Part shown: positions 5,814-32,704 of the stretch, one piece after another
Layout of the letters: each line of letters opens with the position of its first letter
Position numbering within the stretch: position 1 is the first letter of the stretch
Virus record (IMG/VR): IMGVR_UViG_3300030060_007902
Coordinates: 1-32,704 of that record
DNA from: a virus
Direction: 5' to 3' (one strand)
Length of the DNA: 32,704 nt
The notes under the pieces: generated by a model
Seen by the model: the letters and a program-made list of their open reading frames with translations, nothing else
Databases searched by the model: none
Told to the model about the DNA's origin: nothing
Program-made: the position numbers and the translations under genes

Positions 5814-5818
5814 AAAAT

Positions 5819-5826
5819 TATTTATC
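5819..5826 (-). promoter_or_regulatory. Late-type promoter octamer GATAAATA
   Basis: On the minus strand GATAAATA is followed by ATTTT and the ATG at 5813 (5-base spacing). It drives the sheath gene. Confidence 0.6.
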
Positions 5827-5845
5827 CTTTTTTAACCAAATTAAT

Positions 5846-6436
5846 TCAAAAATTAATGACTTCAGTATGTAATTGCGAATAAACAAATGTAAATCCTGAT
5901 GTTATTTCGTTAGAATCTTGATAATTATAATTTACAGCTTCTAATGTAGTAGGAAATGCTTTAGTATACGTGAATTTTATTCGATTGTTATTAAATTCAT
6001 CTTTACCATAAATTGTTAAATCTGTTTGATAATCTCTAAAGTCAGGTGATTCATTCTGATTTAACTCACGTTGATTGTATTTTCCTATATGTTGATCATG
6101 TAGTAAGTTTATCCATTGATAAATTACCCAGTAGTTTCGATATTCGTTATCAACATTAAAATTAACTGTAACAGGTGGGAAAGGATCTTTAGAGTGAGAA
6201 GATACATATAGTGTACTACCAGCATAGCGTGTTTCTTGAGCAGCTACTGTTATTTCTGGTACTGCTGCACCAAAAATAGAAAACTGTACAGAGTCACTAA
6301 TAATAGTAGTGTTATTTTGTTCTTGAGTATAATTTTTATTAATATCTTTTAAAATTGGAGGTACATCAAAAATTAACAAGAACTTATCTGCTCTTGATTT
6401 ATTCAGCATGGACTGCTGCATAGTGTTTCTAGCCAT
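5846..6436 (-). CDS. Second tail tube-like protein between sheath and terminase
   Basis: A 196-residue protein with tube-fold features: ADKFLLIFDVPP (about residues 16-27), QFSIFGAAVPEITV, a strand-turn KDPFPPVTVNFNVDNEYRNY, the helix YWVIYQWINLLHD near residues 100-113, a strand DYQTDLTIYGKDEF, and a final EITSGFTFVYSQLHTEV. The NFNVDNEY..Y..IYQWIN pattern is typical of tail-tube and tube-cap proteins of marine T4-like phages. It resembles the gp19-like protein in layout but not closely in sequence. It could be a tail terminator or junction protein rather than the main tube subunit. The start is 6 bases after a perfect TATAAATA. Confidence 0.6.
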   Translation of the reverse strand: MARNTMQQSMLNKSRADKFLLIFDVPPILKDINKNYTQEQNNTTIISDSVQFSIFGAAVPEITVAAQETRYAGSTLYVSSHSKDPFPPVTVNFNVDNEYRNYWVIYQWINLLHDQHIGKYNQRELNQNESPDFRDYQTDLTIYGKDEFNNNRIKFTYTKAFPTTLEAVNYNYQDSNEITSGFTFVYSQLHTEVINF

Positions 6437-12130: not shown

Positions 12131-14593
12131 CTAGACAGATATTTTTAAATCAGTACCATCTCTCCATACTACACCATCGACACCAGGATCAGATGTAGGT
12201 ATACCACTTAAGGCTAATAATGCGGCATGCAGCATATTTGCTGAGACAGACTGCAAGCCTGTTCCAAGTATAGATGAATGTGCATGAGCAGCTGAAAGTG
12301 TATTGTTATGACCTGATCCAATAAAACCGTAATTTGCCATAACTCTATTTACTTTACCAGATACAACAGCTGCATATTTACATGTAGCAGTGTTTTGATC
12401 ACCTCCAACCACTACTGCATATATATCACATGTTGTATTTCTGGATCCTCCTCCAATAAACGTCTGGCTAGCACGTGTATTATTATTACATCCCCCGGCA
12501 ATAACACTAAAATCTCCGCATGCGTGATGATCATACCCACCACCAACAACCTCGTAGCATGCTTGGGCAATATTACTAAAACCACCACCAATAAAAACCC
12601 CTTCCGCGCATGCGCAATTATTTGCCCCACCTACTATTGTTTGCAAGCAGTTATCTGTTTTAATTTTATTTTGTGAACCACCTACTATAACACCGTAATC
12701 ACCATCGACTTCGTGATTTACACCGGTTCCAATAAAACTGTATACTCTACAAGCTACATTGCAGTTACCATTACCAATAAAACTACAAGCAGCTTCAGTT
12801 TTAAGTTCATTTCTAACTCCATTACCAATAAAGCCATAAGGTTCACAACTTATATTGTTTGAACCACCTACAATTGCAGAACCGACTTCATTATTACAAA
12901 TTTTATTTTGTGTACCACCTACAATTATAGCTGCAGGTCCATTAACACTATTACTTTTACCACCACCTATAAAAGCCCCACTAGCGTTTTCAATTAATGT
13001 ATTTATAGCACCACCAACAATAACGTTATTTCCAAAGCAAGCACAAATTCTGCTTATATATCCCCCACCTACGGTGTCGTACTGCTGGTTTGTCATTGCA
13101 CTTAACCCACCACCAATTGTACTATGACCTCCGTAAGCGCTGTTTCTGCAGCCTCCTGTTACAGACGAATTACTACCACTTGCTGTATTGCACGATCCCC
13201 CAGCTATAACTGAGCGATAGCCCGAAGCTGTGTTAGCGTATCCTCCTCCTATTGTACTACAAGCACCGGTAACACAATTTTGACTGCCTCCGCCAACAGT
13301 GGAACCAAACTGATCAACACCGTTATAACTCCCTCCACCTATAGTAGATTGATTTGAGCTATTGCCAGTATCATTACTAAATCCCCCAGCAATTGTATTT
13401 GCGTGACCCGAGTTGGAACAGATACAATTAGCTTGACCACCACCTACAGTACCACATTTTTGTCCTACAAAATTATCTAATCCCCCAGCAATAGTTGAGT
13501 AACTTGGGTCTGAACCTGAATAAGGACCAATTAAGTTACCTTTACCACCACCTATAAAACCACCATCCGCTGTTGTTTCATTACCATAACCGCCCGCTAT
13601 TGTAGCACCTTGGCCCCCAGCAGTATTACCATAACCACCACCCACTGTTGCGCTCAAGGATGTTGTTTGGTTGGAAAGACCACCTACTACCGTACTAAAG
13701 TCTGAACTAGTTGTATTGAGGCAACCAGCTCCTATAAATGATGTTGTTCCTTTAACTATATTTAACCTACCTCCTACGGCTGCAGCACTTAAACCATGAA
13801 CTGCGTTATGTGAACCACCACCTATAAAAGACATATCTGTTGTAGCAATGTTACTTAATCCTCCTACTACAGTTGAATGTTTTCCACATGCACCATTGCG
13901 CGCTCCACCGCCTGCATACGCTCCAAGAGCAGCTGCTGATACAGCGTGACCACCGGTTACAGCGCTGTAACCTCCTTTTGTATAGTTTACTTCACCACCA
14001 CCTATAACAGATGACTTCAACGAACCGTCCTCTAAAATGTAATTATTACATCCACCGCCAATGGATCCAAAAGACATATCAATCTGATTACTACAACCAC
14101 TTCCAATAAATGAGTAAGAATTCTTAATTGTATTTGTATCACCAGACCCTATAAAACTATTATCAGCGCACACATGATTTTGACAACCACCAGCGATAAC
14201 ACCGTAGTTAGCGAAATTACCCTCACGAATGTAATTGCTACGACCTCCTCCAATAAAAGAGCAATCACCTCTCGCGCAGTTAGCTCGACCACCAGCAACA
14301 CTAGAATTATCACCATTATCTGTATCAGCGTCTATACCAATATGAAGTCCTTCAGATGCACTTAAAACTCCAGTAATACTTTGATCTGTTCTAAATAAAT
14401 TATTTTTAAGAGGTGATGCTATTGGCTGTACTCCAGGTGTACCTCCTAAAGAGTTATACACTGCACCGGTTAAGTAGTTGGTAATAGAACTTAGAGTACC
14501 ACCACGGGTTTCACCAGCTTCAACGATTGCGACTAGTTCTTTTCCATCATATGGTAACTCGTTAGAGTTAAGCTGAGTAATCTTTTTCCCCAT
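12131..14593 (-). CDS. Cys-rich beta-roll tail fibre / receptor-binding candidate
   Basis: An 820-residue fibre. The N-terminus (KITQLNSNELPYDGKELVAI, then VEAGETRGGTLSSI) is a common phage fibre opening. From about residue 95 to 770 the chain is built of roughly 14-18-residue units ending in GGG..N, such as SFIGGGRSNYI, STVGGGSQNCV and SVIAGGCNNNT, like the left-handed beta-roll of YadA-type trimeric heads. About 30 cysteines occur at recurring positions, unusual for a cytoplasmically assembled fibre. The last ~22 residues (SDPGV.G..WRDGTDLKISV) match the end of the 1271-residue fibre. Such caps are common in marine T4-like fibres. Its start is 5 bases after AATAAATA. Fibre identity is fairly sure; the receptor is unknown. 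Confidence 0.82.
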   Translation of the reverse strand: MGKKITQLNSNELPYDGKELVAIVEAGETRGGTLSSITNYLTGAVYNSLGGTPGVQPIASPLKNNLFRTDQSITGVLSASEGLHIGIDADTDNGDNSSVAGGRANCARGDCSFIGGGRSNYIREGNFANYGVIAGGCQNHVCADNSFIGSGDTNTIKNSYSFIGSGCSNQIDMSFGSIGGGCNNYILEDGSLKSSVIGGGEVNYTKGGYSAVTGGHAVSAAALGAYAGGGARNGACGKHSTVVGGLSNIATTDMSFIGGGSHNAVHGLSAAAVGGRLNIVKGTTSFIGAGCLNTTSSDFSTVVGGLSNQTTSLSATVGGGYGNTAGGQGATIAGGYGNETTADGGFIGGGKGNLIGPYSGSDPSYSTIAGGLDNFVGQKCGTVGGGQANCICSNSGHANTIAGGFSNDTGNSSNQSTIGGGSYNGVDQFGSTVGGGSQNCVTGACSTIGGGYANTASGYRSVIAGGSCNTASGSNSSVTGGCRNSAYGGHSTIGGGLSAMTNQQYDTVGGGYISRICACFGNNVIVGGAINTLIENASGAFIGGGKSNSVNGPAAIIVGGTQNKICNNEVGSAIVGGSNNISCEPYGFIGNGVRNELKTEAACSFIGNGNCNVACRVYSFIGTGVNHEVDGDYGVIVGGSQNKIKTDNCLQTIVGGANNCACAEGVFIGGGFSNIAQACYEVVGGGYDHHACGDFSVIAGGCNNNTRASQTFIGGGSRNTTCDIYAVVVGGDQNTATCKYAAVVSGKVNRVMANYGFIGSGHNNTLSAAHAHSSILGTGLQSVSANMLHAALLALSGIPTSDPGVDGVVWRDGTDLKISV

Positions 14594-15256: not shown

Positions 15257-15934
15257 GTGAAGATAAAGTTTGACGAAGCAGCGCATACCTATACGCATAC
15301 TGAGACTGGAGAGCCTTTTATATCTGTAACAACTTTACTCGGTAAGTATAAACAACCCTTTGATAGAGATGGTCATTCAAAGAGAGTTGCAGAAAGAGAA
15401 GGAGTATCACAAGAACTGGTATTAGAGATGTGGGAAGAAGAGAAAAATAGAGCCTGTACACGAGGTACTAATATTCATAAAATATTAGAAGACTATATTA
15501 GTTATGGAGATGTAGAAGATAATTACGGGTGGCTGTGTAAGTCATACGATAAAGCTGCAGAGCGTTCAATAGATTCTTTTAATACTGTTTTATGTGAAAA
15601 TCTTCTGTATAATGAAGAGCATAGTGTTGCTGGTACAGCAGATTTAATCTATGAACATAAGCATGAATTTACAATTGGTGACTTTAAGACTAATAAAAGA
15701 TTTAGGTTTAGCTCAGCTTATTCAGAACGCTTAAAAGATCCTATAAGTCATTTACATAATTGTGAGTTTAATTTATACGGTCTACAACTATCACTATATG
15801 CTTATCTATATGAAAAGATGTCAGGTAAGAGGTGCAGGAAATGTGTGATATTTTACTTGAAAGATGATAGATTTTTATCTTATCATGTAAATTATATGAA
15901 AGCAGAAGTAGAGGCTATTTTAGCTAGTATGTAG
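15257..15934 (+). CDS. PD-(D/E)XK nuclease, RecB/Cas4-like
   Basis: A 225-residue nuclease with the RecB-family active site in order: H74 in RGTNIHKILEDY, D129 in AGTADLIYE, D142-F-K144 in IGDFKTNK, and Q177...Y181 in QLSLYAYLYE. These residues bind divalent metal and cut DNA. It lacks a helicase domain, as do other stand-alone phage exonucleases of this family. Its likely role is recombination, repair or host DNA processing. The start is GTG at 15257; the N-terminus (FDEAAHTYTHTETGEPFISV) fits the family, so no upstream extension is needed. The last 15 bases overlap the convergent superoxide dismutase gene. It is preceded by a sigma70-like promoter, not a late octamer, so it is probably expressed before the structural genes. 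Confidence 0.85.
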   Translation: MKIKFDEAAHTYTHTETGEPFISVTTLLGKYKQPFDRDGHSKRVAEREGVSQELVLEMWEEEKNRACTRGTNIHKILEDYISYGDVEDNYGWLCKSYDKAAERSIDSFNTVLCENLLYNEEHSVAGTADLIYEHKHEFTIGDFKTNKRFRFSSAYSERLKDPISHLHNCEFNLYGLQLSLYAYLYEKMSGKRCRKCVIFYLKDDRFLSYHVNYMKAEVEAILASM

Positions 15935-16546
15935 TAAAGCTGAACAAAAATCCCAATTAATAATTTCAAAGAAGTTTTGTAACCACTCTTTTCTTTTCGG
16001 TCCATACATTAGATAATAGCTATGCTCCCACACATCTACCCCTAAGATAGGTTTACCTAAATTAAACATTAATGGGTTATCCTGATTTGGCGTCCGGACT
16101 AAATCTAATCTACCGTCTTTTTCTACTAACCAACCCCAACCAGACCCAAATTGACTTTTACCGTTTTCAATAAACTCCTTTTTAAATTTTGCGTATGTAC
16201 CAAAACGTTTTAAGATTCTATCTTTTATTTCTCCTGTAAAATTACTACCACCAGGTTTCATCATATTAAAAAACAACTGATGATTATATGCGCCACCTGC
16301 ATTGTCTTTTATATGATCGTTGTATTTTTTAATATCTTTAACTAATTCTACTAATGGTGGTTTTTTCTTATTAACCATAGCAGCATTTAACTTTTTAACA
16401 TAACCCTTATAATGATCGTTGTAATGAAAATCTGTTGTTTGTCTATTAACTACAGGTTCAAGAGCATTTAGCGAATATGGTAGATTAATAGGTTTATAGG
16501 AACCTGCTTTTTCTAAAATTAAGTTTACTTCCCTTGAAAATGACAT
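15920..16546 (-). CDS. sod: Superoxide dismutase, Fe/Mn family (Mn-type pattern)
   Basis: This 208-residue protein has all four metal ligands of the Fe/Mn superoxide dismutases: H41 (DFHYNDHYKGYV), H89 (GGAYNHQLFF), D171 and H175 (GVDVWEHSYYLMYG). The second-sphere pattern is of the Mn type, with Gly four residues before H89 and Gln in TPNQDNPL (Q155). GSGWGWLV and the final NW are also conserved. It converts superoxide to hydrogen peroxide and oxygen. No signal peptide is seen, so it should act in the cytoplasm. It has a late octamer (ATTAAATA, 6 bases before the ATG), so it is probably made late, perhaps protecting particles or the cell during lysis. Superoxide dismutase in a phage is unusual; sequence alone does not show the donor. 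Confidence 0.95.
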   Translation of the reverse strand: MSFSREVNLILEKAGSYKPINLPYSLNALEPVVNRQTTDFHYNDHYKGYVKKLNAAMVNKKKPPLVELVKDIKKYNDHIKDNAGGAYNHQLFFNMMKPGGSNFTGEIKDRILKRFGTYAKFKKEFIENGKSQFGSGWGWLVEKDGRLDLVRTPNQDNPLMFNLGKPILGVDVWEHSYYLMYGPKRKEWLQNFFEIINWDFCSALLHTS

Positions 16547-16574: not shown

Positions 16575-16778
16575 ATGAAACGTAATTCGGTTCTTAAAAA
16601 ATTTGACAAAGAGATAGAAAATTTATTTGATGCATTAGATGGTATAAAAGATTTACTTGAAAGTACAGATGATTATGAATTAGCTGAACTTGGTAATAAT
16701 TTTGTTGATCAAATTGCCGATAATTTAGAAGAAGGCGACATAACAGCACAAAATATAAGAGATCAAATATCTAGTTGA
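16575..16778 (+). CDS. Small helical acidic protein, unknown function
   Basis: A 67-residue protein rich in Asp, Glu, Leu and Ile (KKFDKEIENLFDALDGIKDL, then AELGNNFVDQIADNLEEGDI), probably all helical. It has no transmembrane segment or known motif. It is driven by its own late octamer, and its 3' end contains the TTGATT box of the next promoter. I do not recognise it. Confidence 0.7.
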   Translation: MKRNSVLKKFDKEIENLFDALDGIKDLLESTDDYELAELGNNFVDQIADNLEEGDITAQNIRDQISS

Positions 16779-16801
16779 TTATAATTTTATATGCGTATAA
16801 T
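16775..16801 (+). promoter_or_regulatory. Sigma70-like promoter TTGATT-N15-TATAAT (metabolic operon)
   Basis: TTGATT at 16775-16780 and TATAAT at 16796-16801. The ATG of the GMP reductase gene is 6 bases after TATAAT, so the expected transcription start coincides with the start codon. Confidence 0.55.
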
Positions 16802-16807
16802 ATTTAT

Positions 16808-17848
16808 ATGCGCATAGAGACTGAACTAAAGTATGATTTTGATGATGTACTTATTCGTCCTAAACGATCTACTCTTTCATCTAGAAAAGAGGTAGACTTA
16901 ACTAGAACGTTTAGATTCAAATACGGTGGTTCCTACTGCGGTATACCGGTAATGGCTGCTAACATGGATGGTGTTGGTACGTTAGAGGTAGGAAGAACCT
17001 TAAGTGATCTAGATCTCTTTACTTGTTACAAGAAGGACATCGATGAAAAGGAGCTTATTGAAGAGCTAAAAGATAATCAAGGTAAACATGTAGCTGTAAC
17101 AGTAGGTAGAAACGAGTTTGATTATGAGAGGTTAGCTCGTATTAATAAGAAAGCTTCAGTACGTAATATTTGTATTGATGTAGCGAATGGTTATACACAA
17201 GCTCTTGTTGATTTTGTAAAGGTAGTAAGAAGAACGTTCCCTAAATGTAATATTATAGCAGGTAATGTTGTAACAGGTGAAATGGTTGAAGAGCTTCTTC
17301 TAGCTGGAGCAGATATTATTAAAGTCGGTATTGGATCTGGAAGTGTTTGTACTACTCGACTTAAGACAGGAGTTGGTTATCCTCAGTTTAGTTGCATTGC
17401 TGAATGCGCTGATGCTGCTCATGGACTTGATGGTCATATTATTGCTGATGGGGGATGTACGACACCTGGTGATGTAGCTAAAGCATTTGGTGCTGGTGCC
17501 GATTTTGTAATGCTTGGATCAATGTTAGCTGGTTCAACAGAAGGTGGTGGGGAAAAAATTATTATCGATGATAAAGAGTATGTTGAGTTCTATGGAATGA
17601 GCAGCAAGAAGGCCAACGAGAAACATAACGGGGGTTTAAAAGACTACAGAACTTCAGAAGGACGTAGAGTGGTTCTACCATATAAAGGACCTATGCGTTA
17701 TATTGTTCAAGATATTTTAGGAGGTATTAGAAGTACATGCACATATGTAGGAGCTGCTAAGCTTAAGCATCTGAGTAAATGCGCTACGTTTGTAAGATGT
17801 ACCAAGACGCATAGTAAAATATATGAACCAAACACTTTAGAAATATGA
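16808..17848 (+). CDS. guaC: GMP reductase
   Basis: A 346-residue enzyme of the IMPDH/GMPR family (E. coli GuaC has 347 residues). It reduces GMP to IMP and ammonia with NADPH. Visible features are the TIM-barrel opening DFDDVLIRPKRSTL, PVMAANMD, the catalytic loop KVGIGSGSVCTTRLKTGVGYP with Cys181, a phosphate-binding IADGGC, AFGAGADFVMLGSMLAG and a FYGMSS loop. There is no CBS insert, as expected for GMP reductase rather than IMP dehydrogenase. The usual GPGS is GSGS here. I use the ATG at 16808; the frame continues upstream to 16775 but that adds a poor extension and the promoter supports 16808. It is the first gene of a coupled operon and its stop overlaps the next start (ATGA). Confidence 0.9.
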   Translation: MRIETELKYDFDDVLIRPKRSTLSSRKEVDLTRTFRFKYGGSYCGIPVMAANMDGVGTLEVGRTLSDLDLFTCYKKDIDEKELIEELKDNQGKHVAVTVGRNEFDYERLARINKKASVRNICIDVANGYTQALVDFVKVVRRTFPKCNIIAGNVVTGEMVEELLLAGADIIKVGIGSGSVCTTRLKTGVGYPQFSCIAECADAAHGLDGHIIADGGCTTPGDVAKAFGAGADFVMLGSMLAGSTEGGGEKIIIDDKEYVEFYGMSSKKANEKHNGGLKDYRTSEGRRVVLPYKGPMRYIVQDILGGIRSTCTYVGAAKLKHLSKCATFVRCTKTHSKIYEPNTLEI

Positions 17849-18753: not shown

Positions 18754-19186
18754 AGAAGTAGTAGGTTTTACCGCGGGTAGTTTTGATCTCCTTCACCCGG
18801 GTTATATTTACACATTTGAAGAAGCAAAAAGACATTGCAATAGGTTTCTTATTTTTCTTCAAAAAGACCCATCGTCAACTAGATATACAAAATATAAGCC
18901 AGTTATACCTTATTATGAAAGGTATAAGACATTAATGGCTATTCAGTATGTTGATGATGTGTATATGTATCAAACAGAAGAAGAACTATATGACTTAATT
19001 AAGTTCTTTAAACCCGATGTTAGAATTCTTGGAGAGGATTATATCGGTAAACCATTTACGGGAGATGATCTGCCCCCGAAAATAATTTATACGACCCGTT
19101 CACATGAATGGTCAACAACTAGAATTAAAGATTTAATTACTATACAAACAGTTAAACAAAATCCTGATATTTTAAAAAAGAAATGA
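18746..19186 (+). CDS. Cytidylyltransferase-like nucleotidyltransferase (HxGH motif altered to HPGY)
   Basis: A 146-residue member of the TagD/HldE-C/RibF-type nucleotidyltransferase family, in a subgroup common in marine phages. It has GFTAGSFDLLHPGYI near the N-terminus, FLIFLQKDPSSTR, ERYKTLMAIQYVDDV, RILGEDYIGKPFTG and the C-terminal STTRIKDL motif (residues 123-128). Relatives attach CMP or AMP to a phosphorylated sugar or alcohol. The signature HxGH reads H17-P-G-Y20, so the second, normally catalytic His is Tyr. Activity may be altered, lost, or supported differently. It lies between an SDR sugar enzyme and MtnA and overlaps both (8 bases before, ATGA after). A link to nucleotide-sugar synthesis is inferred from RmlB in the same operon. 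Confidence 0.8.
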   Translation: MNKEVVGFTAGSFDLLHPGYIYTFEEAKRHCNRFLIFLQKDPSSTRYTKYKPVIPYYERYKTLMAIQYVDDVYMYQTEEELYDLIKFFKPDVRILGEDYIGKPFTGDDLPPKIIYTTRSHEWSTTRIKDLITIQTVKQNPDILKKK

Positions 19187-20187
19187 GAGAGTATCCAATC
19201 GAATTAACTCCAACAGTGTCGTGGGATAAAGGTAAGATAATTATTCTAGATCAAACTAAGCTACCTAAAGAAGAAAAATATATAGAGACAAGTAATCTAG
19301 ATGAAGTTATTGCAGCTATACAAAGATTATCTATTAGAGGAGCCCCAGCATTGGGTTGTGTAGGTGCATATGCTTGTGCGTTAGTTGCTTTTAAATGTAA
19401 CTCTCTAATAAAAGAATCATTTAATCGACTGTTACTTAGTGATTGGGAAAAAATTGCTGGTGCTAGACCAACAGCTGTTAATCTTAAGTGGGCTGTTGAT
19501 ATAATGAAAGAAAAATTAACAATGTATTTGGAAGATACTAAGTTTGACTTAATAGAGGCAAGACGCTATCTTTTAAAATGCGCTGAAGAAATTCATAAAG
19601 ACGATATTAAAAGATGTGATGCGTTATGTTTATTTGGTTCTAATTTATTTCCTGAAAAGGCAAAGGTAATGACTATTTGCAACACTGGGGGGTTATGCTC
19701 TGGGGGAATTGGAACAGCTTTAGGATGTATACAATATGCGCATGCTTTCGAAAAAGATATAGAAGTTTATGTACCAGAGACGAGACCTCTACTACAAGGT
19801 GCGCGATTGAATACATGGGAATTGGAACGTTCTAAAGTACCGTATAAATTAATAACTGATAGTATGGCAGGGTCAGTAATGAGGGATAAAAAAATTGATC
19901 TTATTATTGTTGGAGCTGATAGAATTACAAAAAATGGAGATGTAGCAAATAAAATAGGTACATATAATTTAGCTGTTTTAGCAAAGCATCATAAAATACC
20001 ATTTTATGTAGCTGCACCCGACTCTACTGTTGATCGTAACATTAAAAGCGGAGCAGAGATACCAATTGAACAACGAGCTGCAGATGAAATATCATCCTAT
20101 ACCTCGAAGGTATATAACCCAGCATTTGACGTAACACCGTTTGAGCTTATTGATACAATAATTACAGAGAAAGGATATTGGAAATGA
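19183..20187 (+). CDS. mtnA: 5-methylthioribose-1-phosphate isomerase
   Basis: A 334-residue protein of the eIF2B-alpha-like isomerase family, with the full MtnA motif set: SIRGAPALG (residues 50-58), GARPTAVNL (93-101), the catalytic Cys166 in ICNTGGLCSGGIGTALG, ETRPLLQGARLNTWEL (199-214), and GADRITKNGDVANKIGTY with catalytic Asp246. The Cys-Asp spacing of 80 equals that of B. subtilis MtnA (C160, D240). It converts 5-methylthioribose-1-phosphate to methylthioribulose-1-phosphate in methionine salvage. The next gene encodes MTA phosphorylase, which makes its substrate, supporting MtnA over a ribose-phosphate isomerase paralogue. Both ends overlap neighbours by ATGA. Confidence 0.92.
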   Translation: MREYPIELTPTVSWDKGKIIILDQTKLPKEEKYIETSNLDEVIAAIQRLSIRGAPALGCVGAYACALVAFKCNSLIKESFNRLLLSDWEKIAGARPTAVNLKWAVDIMKEKLTMYLEDTKFDLIEARRYLLKCAEEIHKDDIKRCDALCLFGSNLFPEKAKVMTICNTGGLCSGGIGTALGCIQYAHAFEKDIEVYVPETRPLLQGARLNTWELERSKVPYKLITDSMAGSVMRDKKIDLIIVGADRITKNGDVANKIGTYNLAVLAKHHKIPFYVAAPDSTVDRNIKSGAEIPIEQRAADEISSYTSKVYNPAFDVTPFELIDTIITEKGYWK

Positions 20188-20912
20188 AAATTGGATTAAT
20201 TGGAGGATCAGGATTAAGTGATGATAACTTTTTCGAGAAAGCAATAACGGTAGGTACAAAGTATGGGAGCCCATCTTCTAGGGTATTTAAAGGTATAATT
20301 AATAACCATGAAATATTTTATATTAAAAGACATGGCGGTGGTCACATCTATACCCCTACAAACGTACCTTATAGAGCAAACATAAAAGCGCTCGCAGAAT
20401 TAGGATGTGAAAAAATAATTGCAGTTACAGCAGTTGGTTCTTTACAACAAGAAATTGAACCTGGTCATTTAGTTTTCCCAGATCAATTTATAGACATGAC
20501 TAAAAAGAGAAAGACCTCTTTTTTTGAAGATGATAAAAAATTTACACACGTTAATATGGCAGAGCCATTTGACTCTAGTATAAGAAGTAAGTTAATTAAA
20601 TGCGCTAAGAAATTAAACATACCACACCATACTGATAAGACTGTTATAACTATAGAGGGGTTAAGGTTTAGTACGAAAGCTGAAAGTCGGCTATGGCGTT
20701 CCTGGGGTGCTGATATAATTAACATGTCGACAGTACCAGAAGTATGCTTAGCAAAGGAATTAGATATACCTTATCAATCGATTGCGTTGAGTACAGATTA
20801 CGATAGTTGGAATGATGAGCATGAATCTGTTACTTTCGAAATGGTTGTTGAGCAGGTTTATAAGAATGTTAAAAATGTTAAAGAGCTTTTAAATTTATAT
20901 TTTAATGAGTAA
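20184..20912 (+). CDS. mtnP: 5'-methylthioadenosine phosphorylase
   Basis: A 242-residue protein of the MTAP branch of purine nucleoside phosphorylases. Motifs are GLIGGSGL (phosphate site), KRHGGGH, NVPYRANIKALAELG, TAVGSLQQEIEPG, DQFIDMTKKR, a substrate segment IEGLRFSTKAES (normally EGPRFS), WGADIINMSTVPEVCLA and STDYDSW, where D205 and D207 match the adenine-recognising Asp pair of human MTAP. It cleaves methylthioadenosine with phosphate to adenine and 5-methylthioribose-1-phosphate, which MtnA (upstream) isomerises. The start is the ATG at 20184, overlapping the mtnA stop; a TTG two codons earlier is possible but unnecessary. Confidence 0.92.
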   Translation: MKIGLIGGSGLSDDNFFEKAITVGTKYGSPSSRVFKGIINNHEIFYIKRHGGGHIYTPTNVPYRANIKALAELGCEKIIAVTAVGSLQQEIEPGHLVFPDQFIDMTKKRKTSFFEDDKKFTHVNMAEPFDSSIRSKLIKCAKKLNIPHHTDKTVITIEGLRFSTKAESRLWRSWGADIINMSTVPEVCLAKELDIPYQSIALSTDYDSWNDEHESVTFEMVVEQVYKNVKNVKELLNLYFNE

Positions 20913-21897: not shown

Positions 21898-21903
21898 TAA
21901 ATA
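21896..21903 (+). promoter_or_regulatory. Late-type promoter octamer AATAAATA (long fibre)
   Basis: AATAAATA overlaps the rmlB stop and is followed by TGTAT and the ATG at 21909 (5-base spacing). It lets the fibre be made late although the upstream operon has a different promoter. Confidence 0.6.
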
Positions 21904-21908
21904 TGTAT

Positions 21909-24900
21909 ATGAAACTATTTAGCGAAGAGGTAAAGCCTACCTATACTAGCTCAGTTCATAACATCTTAAGAGTTGAAAGTTTAGAGGAAGTTTTCTTCGA
22001 TGTGTTTGAATTTGAGATAAATGGTTCAACATTTATAGCAGAAAAACTAACTACATATAAAGGTAATCCTGTTGTAAATATACCAGTAGAAGTAGGTAAC
22101 ACACAATATAATGCACAATTCATTTTAAGTAAAGGTCCTCAGGAAATTTTACTTAACAATAAAACCTTTAACAAACAAACTGTTAATGAGAATACACCTC
22201 AGAGCTCAGGTATCTTCGAAGAGAGTATAATACACGAAATAGATGAAGCTAGAATTTCAAGTCATAAACTAGAGGAACAACAACAAGAAGCTAAAATTAA
22301 AAAACTAGTTGAGTCGTTAGAATTAAAAGAGAGTAAAGTAAATGATATAATTTCTGATGCTCGTAAGTCATTTGTAGAAGAGTTTTTAAATGTAGCTGAA
22401 AATACTAAATTAGAATTGTATGAAACTAATATACAGTTAGAAGATAATTTAAAAGATAAGTTAAAAATTTATATTAAAGAGTCTTTAAATGATCATAGTG
22501 ATGAATTAACTACATCTGTAAAAAAAGAACATAATAAGTCAGTTGATTTACTAAAAGAAAACTTAAAGGAGCTGACAGATGAAATTTATACTTCAACTCT
22601 AATAAAACTAGTTGAAGATAAAGATAAAAAAAATAAAGAATCTTTTAATTTATTACAAGAAAACTTAGATCTAAAAATTGATGATCTTAATGAAGATATA
22701 AATTTAAGATTTAAGCAATTAGATGCTGAAGTTATATCTATATCAAAGGCTAAAGTTGATATTCATAATGAGTTAAATAAGAGCTTTAATAAAACACTAA
22801 GCCGTGTAGGTAATGTAAAGAAAGGGTTAGAGGATACTTTAGATTCTTCTATGAAATATATAGAAGAAGCTTTAGAGTCTAAGTTTACAAAAGCGGAACA
22901 ATCAGCTAGATCTTATTTTGATACTAAATTAGAAGTTATAGAAGAATCTTTTTCAGGTGAAGAGTCTAAAGTTAAAGCATATATTTTTGATTTAATTAAA
23001 GAAAATAAAGAAGATTTATTATCAAAATTTGCAAATTATCAAAATGAAGCAGCTACAGTAATTGAGCAGTATGGAGATAAAAATGTAAAAATTGATCCTA
23101 AAAAAATACAAGATGATATTCAAACAAATTTAACTAACACTTTTCAGCAACAGATAATGACTCTCCGGAGAGCTGTTGATACATATGGCGGCGGCGGGGG
23201 ATCTGTAGCTAAGCAATTTGCTGCTGGTGGTACAATGGATGGTAATTTGACCGTTAATGGAGAAATAAATGCAGATAAAATATATGCAACTACTTTACTT
23301 TCAGCTGGTACAATTAACTACGAATTTGAATTATCTGGTTTTAGTGTTACAGGAGACATAAGCGCAAATGGGGATATAACTGCAAATCAACTTAGTGCTG
23401 TAGGAACATCACCTAATTACTTCGGAGGTAATGTCGGAATAGGAACAACATCACCTGGGGAAAAACTGCATGTACAAGAAGGCAGTTCAACAAAAGGAGC
23501 TACTATAAGAATTGATAACCCCACTACCACTAACAACTCTTGTGCAGGAATAGAATTTATTAATAGTTCAACAGGTATACCTAGATCAGCTATCATGGCA
23601 CAGAGAGTTGATTCGGGTTATAATCCTGAATTAGTTTTTTACACAAGCGATTCTAATTATTTACAAGAAAGAATGAGGATAGATCATGACGGTTGCATTG
23701 GTATAGGTACAACCTCGCCAAACTCTTTATTGAATGTTCAAGGTGATTCAGACCCAACGATTTTAATAAATGCGGAAACTGGCAATTCTGCAAATAGTGG
23801 AAAGCTAGCGTTTGCAGAAACAGACGGAGGCGCACATCAAGCATTTATTAAATATGACGGTTCTGCTAATAGGTTAGAAATAGGAACAGCAGATGTTTCT
23901 CAAGCTCTCGTAGTAAACAGAACCGATGGCAATGTTGGTATCGGAACACCAGCACCAGCTGAAAAACTAACTGTAGCTGGTAACATTAGCGCTAGTGGAA
24001 GTCTGAGTGCTGCTGGTCCAAGCAGTAATTACTTTCAAGGTAACGTAGGCATAGGTACTAATACTGCTCCTCAAAAACTTACTGTAAGAGGAGGACTAAC
24101 ACACACAAATTCTCTTGGTATTCAAGTTGTCACTATGACGAACGCTAGTGATGCTGGCAGACTTATTGTAAACCAAGCTGGTGGAGTAACAAGAGTTTTA
24201 CTTAATTCTGATGGAGATAGTTATTTTAATAGTGATAATGTTGGTATAGGTACTACCAGCCCGGCTTGTAAGCTTACAGTAGCAGGAGTTATTAGTGCTA
24301 CAGGACTCAAAGGAGTTAGTAGTATAAACCTGGAAGCAGCTGGACCAATAATTACAGCATGCTCTACTAATAACGCAAGTGGTCTTAGAATAAATGTTAC
24401 TGGTCTTGATGCTGATAATGATGATTTACTTAGGGTTCAAGATAATGGCGCTACAAGACTTTGTGTTGAAAGAGATGGTAAGATATTTGGATGTACTGCA
24501 TCTTTAACTGGGTTATCGTTAGCTGATAATTACTATGCATGCTTTGGATCTGGTGCTGATTTAAAGATAAGACATAATGGAACAGACTCTTCAATAGCAA
24601 ATACTTGTGGAGATCTTTACATACAAAATGAAAAGGATGATAAATCTATAATATTTAGAGGTGATAGCGGCGGTAGTGTTGCCGAATATTTTAGAGTAGA
24701 TGGACTTAACTCAGTAAATAAGTTTTGCAAAAATTTGCAGATTTTAGATGGTGTTGAAGCAATGTTTGGTAATGGTAGTGATCTTAAGATTAGTCATGAC
24801 GGTACTAACTCCGGTGTAACTAATTATCTTGGTGATTTTTACATTTCAAATTTTGCAGATGGTAAAGATATTATATTTAGAGCTGATGACGGTGATGGAG

Positions 24901-25724
24901 GATATGAAGAATATTTCCGTTTAGATAGCTCTCTTAATACTGCTGGTAATCCGTATACTGTTTTCCCTGATAATGCCCGTTTATCTTTAGGAGCTGGTGC
25001 AGACCTTAGTCTTTTTCATAACGGCACTAATTCAAGCATTGAAAACACAACAGGTAATTTAAATATTATTAATTATGCTGATGATAAAAATATAAATTTC
25101 CAAACTGATAATCTTAGCGGTGGGGTAACTGATTATTTTACAATAGACGGAAACAATGGATTACTTAACCATCACAAACCCACACTAAATGCAGATGGCG
25201 TATACTCATATTTTGGATCCGGTTACGATTTATCAATATGGCATGATGGTACTAATTCTAATATAAGAAATACAACTAATGACTTATACATTGCTAACTA
25301 TCAAGACGCTGGAGATATCCTCATCCAGTCTGATGATGGTACCGGAGGAGTAGCTAATTATCTACAATTTGATGGTGGTGGTACTTTAATTAGAGCTTAC
25401 AAAAATATTAGAGCGCAAGATGATGTTTTCTTACAAGCTGGGTCAAGTGGAGATTTAGAACTAGTTCATACGGCCAATCATTCATACATTAACAATAAAA
25501 CTGGTGATCTATACATAACAAACTCAGTTGATACATGTGATGTGTTCTTAAGAACAGATAATGGTTCTGGGGGAGTTTGCAATTATATTCAGTTAGATGG
25601 AGGTAGTATATCAACTAATTTGCTAACAACTAAAGTTAATATGCCAAACTTACCAACGTCTGATCCTGGAGTAGCAGGAGACCTTTGGCGTGATGGTACT
25701 GATTTAAAAATATCAGTTGGGTAA
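21909..25724 (+). CDS. Long tail fibre with coiled coil and repeated beta modules
   Basis: A 1271-residue fibre. Residues 1 to about 100 form a putative attachment domain. About 105-420 is a Lys/Glu/Leu-rich coiled coil. A Gly hinge (GGGGGS) lies near residue 427. About 505-800 contains five copies of a VGIGT.SP....L.V module, and about 875-1235 contains five copies of a ~58-residue unit (FG.G.DL.I.HDGTNS.I.NTTGDLYI.N...), both common in marine phage fibres. The last residues, LPTSDPGVAGDLWRDGTDLK then ISVG, match the C-terminus of the Cys-rich fibre. The start is the ATG at 21909, fixed by the late octamer; the ATG at 21903 is two codons upstream in frame. Its stop touches the convergent gene. 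Confidence 0.9.
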   Translation: MKLFSEEVKPTYTSSVHNILRVESLEEVFFDVFEFEINGSTFIAEKLTTYKGNPVVNIPVEVGNTQYNAQFILSKGPQEILLNNKTFNKQTVNENTPQSSGIFEESIIHEIDEARISSHKLEEQQQEAKIKKLVESLELKESKVNDIISDARKSFVEEFLNVAENTKLELYETNIQLEDNLKDKLKIYIKESLNDHSDELTTSVKKEHNKSVDLLKENLKELTDEIYTSTLIKLVEDKDKKNKESFNLLQENLDLKIDDLNEDINLRFKQLDAEVISISKAKVDIHNELNKSFNKTLSRVGNVKKGLEDTLDSSMKYIEEALESKFTKAEQSARSYFDTKLEVIEESFSGEESKVKAYIFDLIKENKEDLLSKFANYQNEAATVIEQYGDKNVKIDPKKIQDDIQTNLTNTFQQQIMTLRRAVDTYGGGGGSVAKQFAAGGTMDGNLTVNGEINADKIYATTLLSAGTINYEFELSGFSVTGDISANGDITANQLSAVGTSPNYFGGNVGIGTTSPGEKLHVQEGSSTKGATIRIDNPTTTNNSCAGIEFINSSTGIPRSAIMAQRVDSGYNPELVFYTSDSNYLQERMRIDHDGCIGIGTTSPNSLLNVQGDSDPTILINAETGNSANSGKLAFAETDGGAHQAFIKYDGSANRLEIGTADVSQALVVNRTDGNVGIGTPAPAEKLTVAGNISASGSLSAAGPSSNYFQGNVGIGTNTAPQKLTVRGGLTHTNSLGIQVVTMTNASDAGRLIVNQAGGVTRVLLNSDGDSYFNSDNVGIGTTSPACKLTVAGVISATGLKGVSSINLEAAGPIITACSTNNASGLRINVTGLDADNDDLLRVQDNGATRLCVERDGKIFGCTASLTGLSLADNYYACFGSGADLKIRHNGTDSSIANTCGDLYIQNEKDDKSIIFRGDSGGSVAEYFRVDGLNSVNKFCKNLQILDGVEAMFGNGSDLKISHDGTNSGVTNYLGDFYISNFADGKDIIFRADDGDGGYEEYFRLDSSLNTAGNPYTVFPDNARLSLGAGADLSLFHNGTNSSIENTTGNLNIINYADDKNINFQTDNLSGGVTDYFTIDGNNGLLNHHKPTLNADGVYSYFGSGYDLSIWHDGTNSNIRNTTNDLYIANYQDAGDILIQSDDGTGGVANYLQFDGGGTLIRAYKNIRAQDDVFLQAGSSGDLELVHTANHSYINNKTGDLYITNSVDTCDVFLRTDNGSGGVCNYIQLDGGSISTNLLTTKVNMPNLPTSDPGVAGDLWRDGTDLKISVG
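24530..25612 (+). repeat. Five tandem ~58-residue coding repeats in the fibre
   Basis: Five units share the order FG.G.DL.I.H.GTNS.I.N..GDLYI.N, then a DD.....F/L.D..GG....YF..DG segment. They start near 24539, 24764, 24986, 25208 and 25430. DNA identity is low, so protein-level constraint rather than recent duplication is likely. Confidence 0.8.
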
Positions 25725-29395: not shown

Positions 29396-29411
29396 GGAAC
29401 TCTAATATAAT
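29396..29411 (+). promoter_or_regulatory. Early-type promoter GGAACT-N4-TATAAT
   Basis: GGAACT 29396-29401, CTAA, TATAAT 29406-29411, six bases, ATG 29418. It heads a unit containing two tRNA genes. Confidence 0.7.
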
Positions 29412-29417
29412 AAAAGT

Positions 29418-29726
29418 ATGAAAAAAGAATATTTCGAACTTAGGATTTTTATTTGCTTTATCTTAACTATTTTTTATGTACAGTATACTGTATTAGTTAA
29501 TAATAACAACGAACCATCAACTGTAGAAGCACTTAAAGAAAAGGCTTTAGATGGATTTGAGGTTCGTATTATTAACGACCACGCAAACGAACGACTAGAG
29601 TTAACAGAAACTCTCGATCAAGCGCTAGCCTACATTAAGGAATACTCTATGCATCATGATGACTTAGTAGCATTTAATTTGTCTACTGGTTCAATAGTTG
29701 CTAAAAGTAACCCAGCAATTGACTAG
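29418..29726 (+). CDS. Small membrane-anchored protein, unknown function
   Basis: A 102-residue protein with one N-terminal hydrophobic helix (about residues 9-27, IFICFILTIFYVQYTVLV) and a soluble, acidic remainder (VEALKEKALDGFEVRIINDH and onward). The anchor is consistent with a membrane location. It is leaderless by promoter geometry. The G of its TAG stop is also the first base of the following tRNA gene. Confidence 0.7.
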   Translation: MKKEYFELRIFICFILTIFYVQYTVLVNNNNEPSTVEALKEKALDGFEVRIINDHANERLELTETLDQALAYIKEYSMHHDDLVAFNLSTGSIVAKSNPAID

Positions 29727-29801
29727 CGCTTGTAGCTCAGTGGTAAGAGCACTCGACTCATAATCGATAGGTCCTGGGTTCAAATCCCAGCGGGCGCACC
29801 A
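29726..29801 (+). tRNA. tRNA with anticodon CAT (Ile2 or elongator Met)
   Basis: A complete 76-base cloverleaf with an encoded CCA. The acceptor pairs GCGCTTG with CGGGCGC, the D-arm is GCTCAGTGGTAAGAGC, the anticodon loop is CTCATAA (anticodon CAT), and the T-arm is CTGGG/CCCAG. G1-C72 pairs, so it is not an initiator. The CGACTCATAATCG core resembles E. coli tRNA-Ile2 (lysidine-modified, reading ATA), which would suit this ATA-rich genome; elongator Met remains possible. Confidence 0.9.
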
Positions 29802-29811
29802 AAAATTTAAA

Positions 29812-30111
29812 ATGGATACAGACGAAGCAATAGATACAGTAGTAGGTTTAGCTAAAGCATTCTTAGTTATGAATGATAACCTACAAGAAGGAATTAAAGT
29901 TCAACCTAACAGACTACCTAAAGTTGAAGAAGCAATAAAGGTGCTTGAAGGTCTAAAGCCATCAAATATAATTGATGAAGTGTTTGATAATGAAATGAAC
30001 GCTAGAAAGAAAAGATTACAGCTTTGTGGTAAACACGAAGATCCAAGATACTACGTACCTTTCCCTGATGAAATAGACGGCGGAACAGCTCAAATACCTC
30101 ATCCGGATTAG
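29812..30111 (+). CDS. Unknown protein between the two tRNA genes
   Basis: A 99-residue, mostly helical acidic protein (DTDEAIDTVVGLAKAFLVMN, then RLPKVEEAIKVLEGLKP) with a C-terminal part rich in Pro and Tyr (DPRYYVPFPDEIDGG). No family is recognised. It starts 10 bases after the first tRNA; its TAG stop gives its G as base 1 of the second tRNA. It is probably co-transcribed with both, so RNA processing would cut the message at each side. Confidence 0.65.
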   Translation: MDTDEAIDTVVGLAKAFLVMNDNLQEGIKVQPNRLPKVEEAIKVLEGLKPSNIIDEVFDNEMNARKKRLQLCGKHEDPRYYVPFPDEIDGGTAQIPHPD

Positions 30112-30186
30112 GGAGCGTAGTCCAACGGCAGAGACAACGGACTTAAAATCCGTACAGTGTGGGTTCGAATCCCACCGCTCCTACCA
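30111..30186 (+). tRNA. tRNA with anticodon TAA (Leu) and a short variable arm
   Basis: A 76-base cloverleaf with encoded CCA. The anticodon stem ACGGA/TCCGT encloses CTTAAAA (anticodon TAA, reading TTA). The T-arm is GTGGG/CCCAC with loop TTCGAAT. The variable region is only five bases (ACAGT), whereas bacterial Leu tRNAs have a long variable arm. The 1-72 pair is G-T and the discriminator is A73. Leu identity is inferred from the anticodon. Confidence 0.85.
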
Positions 30187-30193
30187 ATTTATT

Positions 30194-31396
30194 ATGAAAA
30201 AATATATATTACTAACTACAATTGTACTTGCACCATTAGTTGAAGCGCAGAGATACGATCCTCCGCCTCATTCTAAAATGTTAATCAAACCTAAAATGCA
30301 TATACAGGTAAAGGCACCAGCTCCTAGCCCGTTGGAGAGTCCTAGAGTGCAGGATAAATTACTAAGCTTGTTTAAGTCTTCTAATAAAAATAGCCGTTTA
30401 GTTGGCTATAAGGCAGTAAGAGATAAGTTTAAAAAAGGAGAACTCAAACCAGACGATAGGAGGCTGTATAGAGTTCTAATAGGAAGAGCATCTGACTATC
30501 ATTTAGGAGAGTTGAAGGATCATGTAGAAGATATCTCTAAACCATCTGCTCTTAAGACAGTTGATAGTCCTACTAAATTTAAACAGTTTAACCGATTGTA
30601 TGGCGCATGGTTTATAGCAGCGCTCAACGCAAAAGAGATGGTGCAGACGGATTGGAGAAAGGTTCAACAGTCAGGCTCATTTGAGGGTATGCAAAGAGAA
30701 GTAACTCAATGCATAGCTTTATTTGAGCAAGCAGCTTCTAGTTGGGAGAAGATAAAAGATAGCTATGATATTTCTGCTCTTTATGATACTTGCGAAGCTA
30801 TTAATGAATGTAGAGAAGAAATCTCATGGTGCGATGGGGAGAAAGAGTTCGAAAAGACACCTATCTATAGGATGGTTACAGCAGTTCCAGGAGGCGTTCA
30901 GTTAAAACAAACTTTAGATAGAATTGATAGTTTTGATAGACAATTTAAAAATTACGCTAACTCTGAGTCATTTAATGCTAAGCAAGTCTGGGCTTCAGAA
31001 CAACAACGCGAGATGGTTTCTATTTTGAACAAAAATCGAATGATGATGGGCTTAGAGTGTTTAGAGCTAGATAAACTATTATGTAAAATATCTACTGAAC
31101 ATTCTCAAGATATGGTAGAGAGAGAGTTCTTTAGTCATACAGGATCAGATGGTAAGGGATATGAACAACGTGCAAGAGATGTAGATTGGAATGGAGGAAC
31201 TTGGGCGGAAGTAATTTACACAGGTTCTATAGATCCCAAGGCTGTATATGATGCTTGGTGGAAGAGTGAAGATAATAGACCTAAGCTGTTTGAAAAAAGA
31301 CTTAATAGAATAGGAGTAGGTATCGTCAATAAAACATGGACTGTAGTTATAGGTTCTACATATGATTTTAGATCTGATTACTTTATCGTAGATTAA
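30194..31396 (+). CDS. Secreted CAP/SCP-domain protein
   Basis: A 400-residue protein with a signal peptide (about residues 1-18, cleavage after VEA). A long helical, charged middle (about 40-270) precedes a C-terminal CAP domain (about 275-395): NKNRMMMGLECLELDKLL, EHSQDMVEREFFSHTGSDGK (H303, H315), GTWAEVIYTG (E339), AVYDAWWKSEDNRPKL and RIGVGIVNKTWTVVIGS. CAP proteins are extracellular; in bacteria their role is mostly unknown, with lipid-binding or protease-like functions proposed. The combination with a helical N-terminal region resembles secreted proteins of Planctomycetes/Verrucomicrobia, pointing to host origin (inference). It starts 7 bases after the tRNA, with no Shine-Dalgarno. Confidence 0.82.
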   Translation: MKKYILLTTIVLAPLVEAQRYDPPPHSKMLIKPKMHIQVKAPAPSPLESPRVQDKLLSLFKSSNKNSRLVGYKAVRDKFKKGELKPDDRRLYRVLIGRASDYHLGELKDHVEDISKPSALKTVDSPTKFKQFNRLYGAWFIAALNAKEMVQTDWRKVQQSGSFEGMQREVTQCIALFEQAASSWEKIKDSYDISALYDTCEAINECREEISWCDGEKEFEKTPIYRMVTAVPGGVQLKQTLDRIDSFDRQFKNYANSESFNAKQVWASEQQREMVSILNKNRMMMGLECLELDKLLCKISTEHSQDMVEREFFSHTGSDGKGYEQRARDVDWNGGTWAEVIYTGSIDPKAVYDAWWKSEDNRPKLFEKRLNRIGVGIVNKTWTVVIGSTYDFRSDYFIVD

Positions 31397-31421: not shown

Positions 31422-32522
31422 ATGAAGCCTTACATTATAATAGGGCTCTTAATATTATTGTTAGCAATAGTATCCCCTTCAGGAGCTCAAACGATCTCTA
31501 ACTTAACCGGTTTTCAAGTAGAGAGAATAAAACCTAACTCTCTAAATTTAATAGGCTTAAATACTTCAGTAACTCCTAATGGTAGTACTGCTAAGACCAT
31601 ATATAAAATATTTGGAGAAAATGCTACTAACGCTTATGTTAAAAAAAGCAATAACCCTTCCGAAGCTGATATTATTTGGGTGATTCAAAATGATGGTACG
31701 TGGTTACAAATTTATTATGCTCTAGGAGGAGAAGTTTTTCCTCCAGTTACAGAGGGTTGGCGCGCTGTTGGTTATGGTGATACCGATATGGGAGGTACTT
31801 TAATAACTGGTGGATTTTTTTACGAATCAAAAAGAAATGAAGAGTGGGGATTAGTTATGGCAGGTTTTGTAAATACAAACAATACTAATATTATTACAAG
31901 GACAGAATGGACAATATTAAATAGAGGTACCCCTATACCAATGAGTTTTACTGGTTTAAACTTATCATCATCTCAAGGTTTAATAAAAGGTAATGAACGG
32001 GAAGCAGATATATTATGGGTTCAAGAAGATGGCGTCTGGTCAGGTTATTATTATGCACTGAGGCAGAATTTTCCTCCATTGACTGAAGGATGGAGGAAGA
32101 TTGGATCGGGAAATCAAGATTTTAGTTATCATACAGTTAACTCTTCTGGTATTTTATTACAAGCTCCTAAATGGGCTGTTAGTAATGGTATGTTATCAAG
32201 TAGGCGGTTGATTACTTTATGGCCTCCATCAGGATTTCAAAGAGCAAGAAAGGTAACCGACCCAAATGACCCTCCAAAAGCTCAAGTAGATTATAGTCTT
32301 AGTTATGGTATAGGACAGATACCTAGTAGACTATATTTTGCTGTATTATGGCCAGGTAAACAAGGTATAAATTATACAACAGAATATTATGATACATTCT
32401 CAGGATGGACTTTCTTATCAGAGAGAGAAGGAGATGGAGTTAATTTAAATTTTGATTACACAATAGTGGATTATTTATTATGGGGTGTGACGAGAGTTAC
32501 ATCTGAATGGGTTAACTGGTAA
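31422..32522 (+). CDS. Secreted protein with two TIGR02597-like repeats
   Basis: A 366-residue protein with a signal peptide (about residues 1-22, cleavage after SGA). Two related modules follow: SEADIIWVIQNDGTWLQIYY, EGWRAVGYGDTDMGG (about residues 80-150) and READILWVQEDGVWSGYYYA, EGWRKIGSGNQDFSY (about 192-255). The ADxIWV....W..YYY...WR..G....D pattern resembles the TIGR02597 family of secreted proteins known from Verrucomicrobia; function unknown. The C-terminus is rich in aromatic and strand residues. It has a late promoter, unlike the CAP gene just upstream, so it may be virion-associated or released late. The family link was made by eye. Confidence 0.65.
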   Translation: MKPYIIIGLLILLLAIVSPSGAQTISNLTGFQVERIKPNSLNLIGLNTSVTPNGSTAKTIYKIFGENATNAYVKKSNNPSEADIIWVIQNDGTWLQIYYALGGEVFPPVTEGWRAVGYGDTDMGGTLITGGFFYESKRNEEWGLVMAGFVNTNNTNIITRTEWTILNRGTPIPMSFTGLNLSSSQGLIKGNEREADILWVQEDGVWSGYYYALRQNFPPLTEGWRKIGSGNQDFSYHTVNSSGILLQAPKWAVSNGMLSSRRLITLWPPSGFQRARKVTDPNDPPKAQVDYSLSYGIGQIPSRLYFAVLWPGKQGINYTTEYYDTFSGWTFLSEREGDGVNLNFDYTIVDYLLWGVTRVTSEWVNW

Positions 32523-32542: not shown

Positions 32543-32618
32543 CTGAAAAAAACTGTAATCTTTAGTTGAACATAGGATCAAAAGACATTATATTAAGAGG
32601 TAGTTAATAAAACTAAAA

Positions 32619-32634
32619 GGAACTCTAATATAAT
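32619..32634 (+). promoter_or_regulatory. Early-type promoter GGAACT-N4-TATAAT (sigma factor gene)
   Basis: GGAACT 32619-32624, CTAA, TATAAT 32629-32634, six bases, ATG 32641. The 16-base core equals that before 29418 at every position. Confidence 0.7.
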
Positions 32635-32640
32635 AAGATA

Positions 32641-32704
32641 ATGCCAGTAACTAAAGAACGCGCAGATGATCCGATTCGCGCATATATGAAACAAATGGGT
32701 CAGA
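32641..32704 (+). CDS. Sigma70-family RNA polymerase sigma factor, N-terminus only (cut by window end)
   Basis: Twenty-one codons are visible. DDPIRAYMKQMG matches sigma70 region 1.2, where primary sigma factors such as E. coli RpoD read DPVRMYMREMG. Region 1.2 helps contact the discriminator DNA below the -10 element. This is RpoD-like, unlike the short T4 late sigma gp55, and lacks the long acidic region 1.1 of RpoD. The gene has an early-type GGAACT promoter with no leader. A phage primary-type sigma factor could redirect host RNA polymerase to one of the unusual promoter classes here. The family call rests on one short motif but the match is good; the rest of the gene is outside the window. 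Confidence 0.75.
   Translation, partial: MPVTKERADDPIRAYMKQMGQ

Follow-up and report, generated by a model that had tools for sequence, protein, structure and literature searches.

A predicted exported CAP-domain protein as optional cargo beside a tRNA gene in T4-type phages, probably of marine Verrucomicrobiales

Secreted LysM/YkwD-like CAP proteins are encoded by the Bacillus phages Stills, Staley, Slash and Stahl, and their role is stated to be unknown (PMC4541274). In Rhodobacter sphaeroides, DalA (RSP_1200) is described as binding peptidoglycan and the divisome (PMC10470522); the names SCP and CAP superfamily do not appear in that paper. PrgA of plasmid pCF10 is reported to confer surface exclusion (PMC10588982).

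The protein considered here is encoded in a 32,704-nucleotide stretch of viral DNA, here called the window (Table 1). Like the Bacillus-phage proteins, it is phage-encoded, has a CAP domain and is exported (by prediction), but those proteins carry LysM in place of its helical region and come from phages of Gram-positive hosts. Related LysM-CAP proteins among IMG/VR loci L109-L120 keep the second conserved histidine of the domain, whereas the window protein does not; 13 further CAP-like loci from IMG/VR (L108-L120) match in the CAP domain only and were excluded from the family. DalA is, as is proposed for the window protein, a Gram-negative envelope protein, and the two are related via the CAP domain by an NCBIfam match (NF052539, E 1.2e-9), although DalA is an outer-membrane lipoprotein and the match is limited to residues 267-380 and, at 38.3 bits against a cutoff of 200, falls outside the DalA family. 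PrgA likewise bears a CAP domain on a helical stalk and is encoded by a mobile element, but it has a Gram-positive wall anchor and a reported protease domain, and the likeness is structural only. Beyond common helices, neither DalA nor PrgA matched the helical region. Helical-CAP proteins of Verrucomicrobiales share the helical region as well as the CAP domain, with the difference that the phage copies are without the Zn ribbon and have lost the second histidine in all four alleles.

The sequence-only reading had called CAP proteins rare in phages, which is true of this protein (the window query matches 1 of 50,697 phage records) but not of CAP proteins at large, since a LysM-CAP query matches 60 of the 50,697, some perhaps through LysM alone. 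Phage CAP proteins as such are not new; novel here are the architecture, the probable host phylum, the genome context and a natural presence/absence series. The open-access literature, as far as its text was accessible, yielded no report of a CAP protein from a phage of Verrucomicrobiota.

Table 1. Features of the CAP-gene region, in window coordinates.
Feature	Position	Strand	Remarks
GGAACTCTAATATAATA motif before orf102	29396..29412	+	exact repeat before sigma gene (32619-32635)
orf102	29418..29726	+	first gene of unit
tRNA-Met (CAT anticodon)	29726..29801	+	in orf102-headed unit
orf99	29812..30111	+	flanked by the two tRNAs; not in every relative
tRNA-Leu (TAA)	30111..30186	+	7 nt upstream of CAP start; left slot edge
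Gene for 400-aa predicted exported CAP-domain protein	30194..31396	+	ORF, Pfam, AF2 model, crude Sec rule
Predicted signal peptide, residues 1-19 (MKK..VEA↓QR)	30194..30250	+	cleavage after Ala18 by eye
Helical N-terminal region, residues 45-262	30326..30979	+	homologous to matching region of host proteins
CAP domain, residues 263-390	30980..31363	+	H315 and E339 retained; N361 in place of the second conserved His
S366, second exported host-family protein (predicted)	31422..32522	+	TAAATA late-promoter-like motif at -11
Sigma70-like promoter of sigma gene (TTGAAC-17-TATATT)	32566..32594	+	kept in empty alleles; right slot edge
RpoD-like sigma factor gene, start	32641..32704	+	whole copy L002:2887-4017

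The window's ORF list gives the CAP gene as intact with an ATG start, and its product runs from a predicted Sec-type signal peptide through the helical region to a C-terminal CAP domain. Pfam CAP (PF00188) is matched at residues 278-380 with E 1.4e-8 and 36 bits, above the gathering cutoff of 21.1, and the AF2 model shows a CAP fold over roughly residues 263-390, which aligns with 4ifa at Z 19.6 (rmsd 2.1, 127 aligned); the model matches BB0689 at Z 18.1. The protein falls outside the YkwD family of NCBIfam (TIGR02909, 51.1 bits against a cutoff of 171), and Pfam found no hydrolase domain in it. Foldseek returned no known fold for the helical region at E <= 0.001, and VIA-align gave middling Z scores only (best 8.0). 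The N-terminus passes a crude home-made Sec rule that 3 of the 38 window ORFs pass; shuffled versions pass in 30 of 2000 trials, while for the allele in L086 the figure is 679 of 2000, which makes the rule a weak test there. Where cleavage is predicted, all four phage alleles retain (V/A)xA↓QR, although their hydrophobic stretch varies. The protein has no cysteine in its first 50 residues, so a lipobox is absent. The protein first read from the letters, 400 residues with a signal peptide and a C-terminal CAP domain, is thus upheld by ORF, Pfam, fold and Sec rule, the peptide being predicted, as is its position directly behind two tRNA genes.

H315, E339 and a second histidine position are taken here to be the conserved His/Glu set of the CAP cavity. 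H315 and E339 are invariant in an 11-row alignment, and the second histidine is missing from each of the four full phage alleles (asparagine in the window, L003 and L086, serine in L102), leaving the cavity set incomplete. Because this residue is replaced, a metal-dependent role is unlikely in the phage proteins, judging from the alignment. Among 22 host loci, the position holds histidine in 13 and glutamine or tyrosine in nine. Since those nine are also without it, its loss does not bar membership of the CAP superfamily by descent; the loss may be older than capture by the phage, and the nine loci weaken the idea that it is a phage adaptation.

Chromosomal proteins of Verrucomicrobiales are homologous to the window protein in the helical region and in the CAP domain alike (best E 8e-35, residues 40-388, 29% identity), and host homologues are 22-29% identical to the phage copies. 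Homologues were matched in 14 of 21 handled genomes (16 of 23 records with two phages included) and in 67 of 288 genomes of the order; a phylum-wide sample gave 14 matches in 387, with the N-terminal region covered only in G002. An anchored host form of 508-543 aa joins a Zn-ribbon and a transmembrane helix to the helical region and CAP domain, and an exported form of 354-376 aa begins with a signal peptide. The 22 host loci comprise 12 with Zn-ribbon and transmembrane helix, eight that look Sec-exported and two that are cut. The phage proteins begin with a predicted signal peptide and have neither Zn ribbon nor transmembrane helix, which sets them outside the anchored form; descent from the exported form is possible.

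On these homologies, the donor is the Verrucomicrobiota "helical region + CAP" family, and the search for bacterial donors and phage relatives yielded both full-length Verrucomicrobiales homologues and related phage alleles. In the tree, all four phage alleles fall into a single clade (100/100) whose stem measures about 3 substitutions per column, which argues that the capture is old. The clade is placed with the anchored host forms at 52/60, a support that leaves the notion of a mimic of the anchored form weak. The proposal that a host gene was captured at a tRNA therefore stands in part: the host-family origin agrees with it, as does a polymorphic site immediately behind a tRNA, and recent capture is rejected in view of the 29% identity of the best chromosomal match, the long clade stem and a phage-like base composition (GC3 0.277 against 0.246 for the terminase gene). 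A pattern search of genome contigs found no close relative. Co-capture with DUF1501 was considered and rejected; the DUF1501 protein linked to host CAP is 47-49% identical to the phage copy, and an unlinked paralogue 78%.

Twelve related records, the window included, can be read across the tRNA-Leu. CAP and S366 are both present in seven (window, L164, L149, L147, L154, L155, L156), S366 stands without CAP in three (L148, together with L174 and L175, which are more distant and differ in the further flank), and the slot is empty in two (L151, L153), where the tRNA-Leu is followed directly by the sigma-gene promoter. L150, L152, L158 and L160-L163 were left out of this count, as the site is not reached or, as in L160, the tRNA pair is absent; a search of whole records, most of them fragments, found CAP in 6 of 18. 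The junctions are sharp, with a common tRNA-Leu end on the left and a common TTGAAC-N17-TATATT region on the right. The tRNA-Leu is the phage's own and is retained in alleles that lack the cargo; reading the ORFs of the contigs examined by eye turned up no integrase, and nothing seen points to tRNA-targeted integration. Because the slot's content varies among the 12 records, the CAP gene is optional cargo and not a core virion gene. The earlier account would have failed had the protein proved a widespread virion protein or lacked a functional signal peptide; it is absent from some close relatives, and the predicted peptide is present.

In L148, a hydrophobic mini-ORF of 23 codons (L148:4316-4387) lies directly after the tRNA-Leu, in the place of CAP, and is possibly the signal-peptide remnant of a deleted CAP gene. 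A second S366-like ORF occurs just after tRNA-Thr in L103 (12002-12325), which suggests more than one tRNA-adjacent cargo slot.

In related IMG/VR contigs, one CAP allele at the same place is 88% identical to that of the window and the others about 61%; L102, L103 and L104 look like near-copies and should be counted as one allele. The closest CAP is that of L149 (88%), whereas the closest S366 is that of L147 (88%), the L149 copy being only 63% identical; DUF932 is 85-89% identical to all three records compared, and a rough look at a DUF932 tree did not group the CAP-bearing records together. Because neighbouring genes disagree on kinship in this way, the slot has probably been shuffled by recombination. 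A simple Nei-Gojobori script gave dN/dS of 0.04 (window/L003), 0.15 (window/L086) and 0.21 (L003/L086), with dS near 2 and saturated; by these ratios, the gene is kept by purifying selection.

The T4 late-promoter concept underlies the use of TAAATA as a late-promoter-like motif. In hand-chosen sets of ORFs, 9 of the 11 in the structural module carry TAAATA at -11 to -15, as do 4 of the 24 others; the background is 1.75% of 25-nt windows. The motif is absent from the 25 nt upstream of the window CAP gene, which agrees with the earlier claim that the gene is without its own late promoter, and from the gap before CAP in L003, L086 and L103, while the window S366 has it, as do the S366 copies of the five relatives examined. 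By this contrast between CAP and S366, CAP belongs to the orf102-headed unit, which would be early. The GGAACTCTAATATAATA site before orf102 is a possible start for such an early-type unit; with up to 3 mismatches allowed, the motif matches 3 times, compared with a shuffle mean of 0.45, and 1 of 100 shuffles reached 3. The T4 consensus TATAAATA, allowing <=1 mismatch, occurs 123 times in the window against a chance mean of 136, with no excess, and TAAATA is informative only when placed at gene starts. A scan for sigma70-type promoters inside the unit gave 18 against 13.3 +/- 3.9 by chance, a count on which no claim is possible. Outside the structural module, TAAATA is further found before the superoxide dismutase gene and before two more ORFs (16546, 16575, 26198). 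The RpoD-like sigma factor, whole in the sister contig L002, has its own sigma70-like promoter, and its alleles are 63-69% alike between phages.

The 15 relatives listed among the matches to the window terminase are phages with genomes of 143-158 kb, at 33-39% identity. Their group is presumably that of the T4-type phages, and by this likeness the contig belongs to a T4-type phage. L002 overlaps the last 2949 bases of the window; of the 75 mismatches in this overlap, 68 fall in the final 249 bases. The contig carries a full-length DUF1501 gene (4802-6223; Pfam E 1e-143). Among the best 80 of 577 matches to its product, the eight best genome matches are Verrucomicrobiales or Verrucomicrobiia at 76-78% identity, and Poribacteria and Hydrogenedentota are among the matches at 68-69%. 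Chromosomal homologues of S366 occur in 13 of 20 Verrucomicrobiales genomes. Judged from shared genes, the host is probably a marine member of the Verrucomicrobiales. The DUF1501 gene recurs in two lineages of these phages (L002:4802-6223, L175:6476-7897), and its start in both is presumably a twin-arginine-like motif.

The reading cautiously favoured here is that the CAP protein is an early, exported, non-catalytic mimic of a host CAP protein that changes the envelope of the infected cell, in a phage of marine Verrucomicrobiales. The gene would be transcribed early along with the tRNAs, and its product exported by Sec and trimmed by signal peptidase to a mature protein that may be free and soluble in the periplasm. 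There it would work by binding and not by catalysis, probably without metal, as a loose mimic of the membrane-anchored Zn-ribbon/TM/CAP protein of the host, and the infected cell's wall or surface might be altered to the benefit of the phage, most likely against competing phages or normal septation.

Superinfection or competitor exclusion, in which CAP and neighbouring exported proteins would mask or cut a surface structure much as PrgA acts in conjugation, is a tentative alternative. It accords with the optional nature of the cargo, its strongly differing alleles with conflicting neighbours, and the two small putative lipoproteins that follow in the same cluster. PrgA (6z9l) matches the model at residues 148-393 (Z 11.1, rmsd 4.7, 152 aligned), but this match comprises the CAP fold and common helices only, PrgA is wall-anchored on a ~40-nm stalk in a Gram-positive while the phage protein is without an anchor, and PADLOC gave no hit. 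Rather unlikely is a dominant-negative decoy of the anchored host protein, blocking a septation or wall-remodelling complex. The phage protein does correspond to the periplasmic half of the host protein, minus Zn ribbon and TM, and DalA, a CAP-domain relative by its below-cutoff NF052539 match, binds peptidoglycan and co-precipitates with divisome proteins (PMC10470522); against the decoy, the tree groups the phage clade only weakly with the anchored form. A more elaborate version, and a doubtful one, would see an exchangeable envelope cassette drawn from host surface proteins, early CAP and late S366, with CAP, lacking anchor and cavity metal site, as a soluble decoy that shuts rival phages out of the infected cell and thus a phage counterpart of plasmid-borne CAP surface exclusion.

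An accessory factor for lysis or wall activity is improbable: predicted export, the CAP fold and the putative lipoproteins nearby would suit one, but the protein has no hydrolase domain, no holin was recognised beside its gene, and the late-promoter motif is absent. Presence/absence polymorphism would be expected of a selfish or neutral passenger acquired in a tRNA hotspot, yet the low dN/dS (0.04-0.21, with near-saturated dS) and the identical place held by four diverged alleles make this very improbable. A virion structural protein is scarcely credible for a product with a predicted signal peptide whose gene has no late-promoter motif, lies outside the structural module and is missing from close relatives with the same flanks.

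If the favoured reading of an envelope-changing mimic is true, a lytic marine phage re-uses a host envelope protein as exchangeable cargo, and a group of T4-type phages has Verrucomicrobiota for its likely host. The filled, half-filled and empty alleles would form a natural series for testing an exported phage CAP protein.

Several other genes of these phages deserve mention. S366 (366 aa) matches no Pfam or NCBIfam family, and in all four loci examined, L133-L136, the chromosomal homologue follows immediately after a secretin gene (PF00263 in L133, homologues in the others). The two small putative lipoproteins near the CAP/S366 slot lie after the sigma gene (L002:4036-4440). By Pfam, window positions 15920-16546 (-), 16775-17848 (+) and 19183-20912 (+) hold genes for an Fe/Mn superoxide dismutase, an IMPDH-type enzyme and IF-2B-family (MtnA-like) and nucleoside-phosphorylase-family proteins, perhaps a methionine-salvage and stress set of the phage. 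Two long, internally repetitive proteins of 820 and 1273 aa (12131-14593, -; 21903-25724, +), both ending in DLKISV, are probably tail or fibre-like.
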